A stretch of 64,000 nucleotides of DNA, taken from NCBI GenBank assembly GCA_025210375.1, contig JAOASB010000019.1, positions 1 through 64,000 of the forward strand, written 5' to 3'. Below the pieces are notes generated by a model, which was not told the origin of the DNA, made no database searches, and was given only the letters and a program-made list of their open reading frames with translations. Below are positions 28,106 to 28,851 of the stretch, in pieces. Every line of letters starts with the position of its first letter. The first letter of the stretch is position 1. Both the position numbers and the translations under genes were made by a program. This DNA is from Maledivibacter sp. Lineage in GTDB: Bacteria > Bacillota > Clostridia > Peptostreptococcales > Caminicellaceae.

Positions 28106-28206
28106 AGAGAGTTCCAAGTAAATCTTAATTTATACATAGCAAAATATCCGATGTTTCTGGGGATTTTTGATATGTATAAATTAAAGTTTTGACTAGAATC
28201 CCTATA
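28106..28206. repeat. 100-bp hairpin repeat, copy 1
   Basis: Nearly identical (about five differences) to 47029-47130. The centre is a long imperfect palindrome, TAATTTATACAT / ATGTATAAATTA. Its edge coincides with the stop codon of the RsbW-like gene. The gap 27896-28201 holds only this repeat and AT-rich DNA. Confidence 0.8.
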
Positions 28207-28606
28207 TACTAAATACAGGTTCTAATTTATTTATATTTTTTTGTATTATTAAAACATTCTTTCTTAATTCCAACTTGTCTGAAATAGCCTTTATAAGAAA
28301 TAATCCCCTTCCATAGCTATCTAATACATTCTCCTCTAATATCTCCTCTACTACAGGTTTGTTAAAGAAACCCCTCCCACAATCTTCTATTTCAAAGTTT
28401 ACACTTTTCTCATCATAAGTGGTTCTGATATAGATAGGTTTATCCACTCTATTATCATTGCCATGCTTAAATGCATTAGTTAAAGCCTCCGTCAATATAA
28501 GCCTAACATCAAAATCATCATTTGGAGTATCTAAAGTAGTGATAATATCATCAATAACTTTTTTATGATTGTCTAATCCATATAGTACATATTCTTTTTT
28601 ATTCAT
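28202..28606 (-). CDS. RsbW/SpoIIAB-like serine kinase (copy 2)
   Basis: 134 residues, a paralogue of the protein at 26001-26381 (shared EALTNAFKHGN, VDKPIY and GRGLF blocks). The ATP-binding motifs EDCGRGF and YGRGLFLIKAISDKL are intact. It is a single-gene unit behind a c-di-GMP-I riboswitch, so its level should follow c-di-GMP, unlike copy 1. It may compete with copy 1 for the STAS protein or bind another target. The ribosome site is GGGGGCGA. Confidence 0.87.
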   Translation of the reverse strand: MNKKEYVLYGLDNHKKVIDDIITTLDTPNDDFDVRLILTEALTNAFKHGNDNRVDKPIYIRTTYDEKSVNFEIEDCGRGFFNKPVVEEILEENVLDSYGRGLFLIKAISDKLELRKNVLIIQKNINKLEPVFSI

Positions 28607-28661
28607 TTATAATCGCCCCCATCACCATGGTACCCTATGTGTTAATATAGAATCAGCATAC

Positions 28662-28696
28662 AAAAAATAAAAAAACCTGGTTGGTCACCAAACAGG
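28662..28696 (-). terminator. Terminator of the c-di-GMP riboswitch
   Basis: Stem CCTGTTTGGTGACCAACCAGG followed by TTTTTTTATTTTTT on the minus strand, between aptamer and gene. It forms the expression platform. Confidence 0.92.
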
Positions 28697-28729
28697 ATTA
28701 ATCCACTATAATATATAGTTAATTAAACA

Positions 28730-28812
28730 AATTCAGTAACCGGCTATCATAGTCTGTTGACTTTAGACCCTTGGCTTTGCGTCCCTATATTTCTATAGGT
28801 TTGCCTTTTCAT
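28730..28812 (-). promoter_or_regulatory. c-di-GMP-I (GEMM-I) riboswitch aptamer
   Basis: The minus strand carries the GEMM-I hallmarks in order: AGGCAAACC, a stem closed by a GAAA tetraloop (CTATAGAAATATAG), GGGACGCAAAGCC, the tetraloop-receptor side AAGGGTCTAAAGTC, and ATGATAGCCGGTTAC. The single gene controlled is the second RsbW-like kinase. A strong terminator follows 34 bases on. Whether ligand turns the gene on or off was not derived. Confidence 0.9.
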
Positions 28813-28845
28813 CATATTATTAACATATTCTACTTATATATTCAT

Positions 28846-28851
28846 ATTATA
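28846..28851 (-). promoter_or_regulatory. -10 element ahead of the c-di-GMP riboswitch
   Basis: TATAAT within ATTATGTTATAATA, a string also found at the promoter of the SpoIIE leader. No clear -35 box was found in either. The region 28852-29000 holds AT-rich DNA and a partial hairpin repeat at 28928-28975. Confidence 0.6.

Follow-up and report, generated by a model that had tools for sequence, protein, structure and literature searches.

A candidate c-di-GMP-I riboswitch upstream of a duplicated partner-switch kinase in Maledivibacter

A GEMM-I aptamer followed by an intrinsic terminator precedes a stand-alone partner-switch kinase gene in a 64,000-nt stretch of a Maledivibacter sp. genome (GCA_025210375.1, contig JAOASB010000019.1, positions 1 to 64,000; termed here the window). 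On balance, we think it probable that this leader acts as a transcriptional OFF riboswitch of the Cd1 type, and that c-di-GMP, by controlling one member of a duplicated kinase pair, adjusts how much kinase acts in a partner switch linked to a chemoreceptor. The computed evidence comprises the aptamer, the terminator, an alternative pairing that would disrupt both, the protein family of the kinase, its duplication, the conserved gene module that contains the second copy, and the recurrent placement of GEMM-I aptamers before that module in other genomes.

Results

The aptamer and its genomic setting

The locus lies on the minus strand. Its aptamer (28815-28732) matched the c-di-GMP-I (GEMM-I) covariance model, Rfam RF01051, over the full model length (positions 1-87) with a score of 80.8 bits (E 2.6e-14) against a gathering score of 35, which places the RNA within the class. 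The original prediction, which had read a textbook GEMM-I aptamer at 28730-28812 and named a covariance-model scan as a check, is thus borne out. A custom model derived from 39 aptamers, taken from this genome and its relatives, scored the same segment at 77.1 bits, and the next best hit anywhere in the 64 kb reached 16.2 bits; this is the only GEMM-I aptamer in the window. Both ligand-contacting positions are retained: the G at position 11 (Cd1 G11, Vc2 G20 in that numbering; PMC9262584) and a C near the 3' end (alignment position 80), which is invariant across the 39 aligned sequences and presumably corresponds to Cd1 C87. Judged by these features, the RNA is a typical GEMM-I riboswitch, a well-established class, and a candidate c-di-GMP sensor.

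The genome contains four GEMM-I aptamers including this one, the remaining three preceding genes for secreted TIM-like, transglutaminase-like and PAS-GGDEF proteins (names taken from reading the ORFs). Because there are 19 GGDEF and 6 EAL domain matches, the genome has, by its domain content, the equipment for making and breaking c-di-GMP. The unit before the PAS-GGDEF gene, a GEMM-I aptamer with a terminator (L004:1501-1590, minus strand), is likely a c-di-GMP feedback loop. Elsewhere in the window, tandem SAM (S-box) aptamers (7871-7765 and 7637-7534, minus strand; 88.5 and 87.7 bits) precede ORFs for an uncharacterised protein (7378-6206) and a ferredoxin-like protein (6202-5801), the latter followed by a methylenetetrahydrofolate-reductase-like ORF (4860-3964), and a 1629-aa ORF (39833-34944, minus strand) apparently combines, in a by-eye reading, HD-like, nucleotidyltransferase-like and phosphoribosyltransferase-like parts.

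A terminator and a predicted competing antiterminator

Transcription of the kinase A leader is predicted to start from a sigma-A type promoter (TTTATA-17-TATAAT, 28898-28870), which agrees with the consensus at 10 of 12 positions in a scan whose matches are frequent by chance (14 found vs 10.2 expected). Downstream of the aptamer, and before the kinase gene as originally proposed, lies an intrinsic terminator, CCUGUUUGGUGACCAACCAGG plus a U tract (28696-28669), in which the hairpin proper (28696-28676, -7.9 kcal/mol) is followed by the U run. Aptamer and terminator have no strands in common and can coexist. In the unconstrained minimum-energy fold of the leader, by contrast, the aptamer 3' strand GGUUACUGAAU (28741-28731), the predicted antiterminator strand A, forms 11 contiguous pairs with GUUUGGUGACC (28693-28683), a switching strand that comprises the terminator 5' arm and loop; the energy of this duplex is -11.6 kcal/mol. 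Since the antiterminator fold is lower in energy than the fold in which aptamer and terminator are enforced (-41.0 vs -33.7 kcal/mol), it is predicted to prevail in the absence of ligand, whose binding would release the terminator.

This arrangement, a terminator-compatible aptamer with an antiterminator built on the aptamer 3' strand, is the layout of a Cd1-type OFF switch. In Cd1, an antiterminator competes with an aptamer and a terminator that can form side by side, giving an OFF switch (PMC9262584), and the class I riboswitches of C. difficile are OFF switches (PMC6200980). From the modelled fold and its match to Cd1, c-di-GMP should terminate transcription of kinase A, a direction that we infer. 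Statistical support for the antiterminator pairing in this leader is moderate: 20 of 5000 shuffles (0.4%) equalled it for the narrow strand, and 5% did so for the wide strand. The antiterminator is clearest in the genome's own PAS-GGDEF leader, where the chance level is 0.2%; the level is 5-6% in the leaders of another genome (G036) and Clostridium ganghwense, and in three relatives 35-95% of shuffles were equally good. An antiterminator universal to all relatives was therefore rejected as a generalization, the pairing holding in the window, G036 and the own PAS-GGDEF leader, being borderline in C. ganghwense and failing in the others. A terminator hairpin lies 3' of the aptamer in all seven leaders examined.

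Kinase A, a partner-switch-type kinase with a probable transcript of its own

The kinase A ORF (28606-28202) starts 125 nt past the aptamer and encodes a stand-alone HATPase_c_2 protein of 134 aa (RsbW/SpoIIAB-like; PF13581, E 1.3e-18). It retains the N-box residues E40 and N44, the G1 motif D75xG77 and the G2 motif GRGLF, along with every module-invariant residue, and so belongs among HATPase_c_2 partner-switch kinases in the broad sense, as defined by the domain and these motifs. It scores far below the NCBIfam equivalog cut-offs for SpoIIAB (39.4 bits, cut-off 135) and RsbW (29.6 bits, cut-off 145). Sigma-partner loci are found separately in the genome: contig 36 carries a STAS–RsbW–SigB-like locus and contig 26 a SpoIIAA–SpoIIAB–SigF locus. 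Neither the window nor any of the module loci yielded a SigB or SigF homologue in tblastn searches with these two sigma proteins (threshold 1e-3). For these reasons the 'anti-sigma' part of the original name, an RsbW-like anti-sigma kinase, is not supported, and 'partner-switch kinase' is the safe description at the level of sequence.

The transcript looks monocistronic, in keeping with the single-gene unit first proposed: a terminator-like hairpin (28014-27975, -11.6 kcal/mol), which a strict terminator pattern scan did not catch, is followed by the U-rich UUUUUUCUUUUU, and a second promoter-like sequence precedes the next operon. On its other side kinase A adjoins AgrB/AgrC-like genes (31235-29315, minus strand). 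Similar neighbours flank a single kinase in a relative of the same family (G002, locus L079), and the locus therefore looks syntenic.

The neighbouring operon and the duplication

The next operon (27568-23672, minus strand) encodes a PP2C–HATPase–MCP–STAS module: a SpoIIE-type PAS-PP2C phosphatase (27568-26399; PF07228, E 3.8e-25, and PF00989), the 126-aa HATPase_c_2 paralogue kinase B (26381-26001; PF13581, E 1.1e-18), a dCache-HAMP-MCP chemoreceptor (25955-23961; PF02743, PF00672, PF00015) and an anti-anti-sigma-type STAS protein (23959-23672; PF01740, E 2.4e-14; TIGR00377 above cut-off). Ser50 in the DSTGLG motif of the STAS protein is invariant, and this protein is the likely kinase substrate. 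The leader of the operon (27910-27640) has features that the original prediction did not mention, namely a promoter-like sequence resembling that of kinase A and its own terminator (about 27676-27641, -11.4 kcal/mol). The same prediction held that the neighbouring paralogue lacks the canonical element, and this stands: the leader gave no Rfam match even at E ≤ 10. A relic aptamer was considered there and is not claimed, because the best segment scored 10.7 bits with our own model run without filters, whereas noise in the window reaches 16.2 bits. The fold z-score of the leader is -1.67.

Kinases A and B are 63% identical and are sisters on the kinase tree (support 99/98), with branch lengths of 0.39 for A and 0.11 for B. 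Because dN is 0.22 and dS 1.09, the pair has diverged under purifying selection. The leaders of kinase A and of the kinase B operon, which each end in a terminator, also align better than expected (score 113 vs 74 ± 8.7 for shuffles, with 0 of 500 as high), a resemblance residing mostly in the promoter. Such a pattern could have arisen if promoter, leader and kinase were duplicated together and one copy later lost its aptamer. Among the loci examined, a stand-alone kinase behind a GEMM-I aptamer occurs only in this genome.

GEMM-I aptamers precede the same module in other genomes

A single-protein query of the genome contigs for the module kinase returned no matches; an alignment-based query returned 47 loci instead. 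The gene order PP2C–HATPase–MCP(dCache)–STAS is conserved in about 49 distinct loci across Clostridia and Paenibacillus, some of them lacking the PP2C or the MCP gene. Five further genomes carry a same-strand GEMM-I aptamer directly upstream of the module (G036, a Marinisporobacter MAG, Clostridium ganghwense, Oceanirhabdus seepicola and Peptoclostridium litorale, the first two of the same genus), followed by a terminator in each, which lends support to the original proposal that c-di-GMP is tied to a partner-switching pathway. Candidates in Lutibacter sp. B2 (L080/L130) and Tepidibacter mesophilus (L107) were dropped, their aptamers pointing away from the module. With about 5 aptamers per 3.5 Mb, a limit of ≤500 nt upstream and the right strand required, the chance of such a placement is about 4e-4 per locus, so that about 0.02 would be expected in 49 loci vs 6 seen, a rough estimate in which related genomes are not independent. 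Mapped onto the kinase tree, the presence of GEMM-I changes at least twice across well-supported branches.

Between the aptamer and the kinase of the Marinisporobacter MAG lies what is left of a sensor-PP2C gene (L132:5844-5975; 59% over 44 aa, E 1e-10, with an in-frame stop), and GEMM–PP2C–HATPase–MCP–STAS may therefore be the older order there. In these relatives, c-di-GMP would by analogy lower the whole module, including the chemoreceptor where present, a prediction in line with C. difficile, where c-di-GMP generally represses motility genes (PMC6200980).

Discussion

The ligand response and its direction, the kinase activity, the STAS protein as substrate and the output of the switch all enter our scheme as suppositions drawn from the computed features. 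At low c-di-GMP, the aptamer 3' strand would pair with the terminator 5' arm and kinase A would be transcribed; at high c-di-GMP, the aptamer would keep its 3' strand, the terminator would form and no kinase A would be made. Like kinase B, kinase A would most likely phosphorylate the STAS protein, whose gene lies 4 kb further downstream, with the PP2C phosphatase opposing both. Low c-di-GMP would thus add STAS phosphorylation through kinase A and high c-di-GMP would remove this extra dose, while kinase B would remain governed by its own leader, such that c-di-GMP would set the kinase dose of the chemoreceptor-linked partner switch. Kinase A is probably turned down by c-di-GMP as cells quit the swimming state. 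Differential control of the two copies by c-di-GMP is plausible but unproven, and the change in kinase ratio suggested at the outset would fit the duplication and the differing leaders. The fuller version, in which c-di-GMP acts through the riboswitch to set the dose of one of two kinases sharing a single chemoreceptor-tied STAS protein, the copies being divided between one transcript with the riboswitch and one without it, we regard tentatively, as possible rather than probable.

Much depends on what kinase A binds. The outputs of such modules vary: phosphorylation of the STAS protein HsbA decides whether it partners HsbR or FlgM (PMC6482189), and SiaC activates a diguanylate cyclase (PMC8457831). 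Kinase A is also the more diverged copy and, evolving faster than B, may have another substrate. We give an appreciable but minor chance to its binding some partner other than the STAS protein, for example a diguanylate cyclase, a sigma factor or, like FlgM, an anti-sigma factor, with c-di-GMP tuning that interaction. Against this, the ATP-binding and N-box residues are kept and the module loci searched yielded no SigB or SigF homologue. It is rather unlikely that the riboswitch originally governed the entire module, that a rearrangement left kinase A and its leader behind, and that read-through still feeds the PP2C–HATPase–MCP–STAS operon. The whole module does sit behind GEMM-I in five other genomes, and the PP2C remnant in the Marinisporobacter MAG (59% over 44 aa) indicates that genes are lost beside GEMM-I; however, kinase A is separated from the PP2C gene by a terminator-like hairpin (-11.6 kcal/mol) and then by another promoter-like sequence with a terminator of its own, and kinase A is under purifying selection.

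The two leaders raise further alternatives. If the leader at 27910-27640 had an undescribed or divergent sensor of its own, both kinases would be leader-controlled; its length, a terminator close ahead of the PP2C gene, a promoter related to that of kinase A and the fold z-score of -1.67 are consistent with this, but with no Rfam match and a GEMM-like score at noise level (10.7 bits) we regard it as quite unlikely. Less likely still is that the kinase A aptamer works as an ON switch or controls translation rather than termination. One class I locus of C. difficile is raised by c-di-GMP, though via its promoter (PMC6200980), whereas here a terminator independent of the aptamer and an antiterminator requiring the aptamer 3' strand imply OFF logic, and the predicted fold shows no pairing between the aptamer and the ribosome-binding site of kinase A. 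Transcriptional OFF control of kinase A therefore remains our preferred reading.

The sensor type is well known, and we did not find its kinase target described: a literature search, with most subscription journals outside its reach, returned no paper linking GEMM-I to an RsbW or partner-switch kinase. If the preferred reading is correct, c-di-GMP directly controls, at the RNA level in Clostridia, a partner switch that is based on a serine kinase and has a chemoreceptor of its own. The module, preceded by GEMM-I in at least three families, offers a defined unit for studying how chemotaxis sensing and serine-phosphorylation switches are connected. The leader resembles that of the flagellar flgB operon of C. 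difficile, Cd1, in its GEMM-I aptamer, separate downstream terminator, antiterminator involving the aptamer 3' strand and predicted transcriptional OFF behaviour. It differs in its target, a stand-alone partner-switch kinase rather than a flagellar operon. Like RsbW and SpoIIAB, kinase A has the HATPase_c_2 fold, the N-box and the ATP-lid motifs, with a DSTGLG STAS protein and a PP2C phosphatase alongside; unlike them, it falls far below the equivalog cut-offs, has no sigma gene nearby and is accompanied by an operon containing a chemoreceptor. The HsbR-HsbA-HsbD and SiaABCD systems of P. aeruginosa are likewise phosphatase/kinase/STAS-type switches linked to c-di-GMP and to the motile or sessile state, and in these, the known cases that we found, the switch lies upstream of c-di-GMP. 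Whereas those switches act on a cyclase or on sigma and anti-sigma factors, here the direction would be the opposite, c-di-GMP acting on the switch through RNA.
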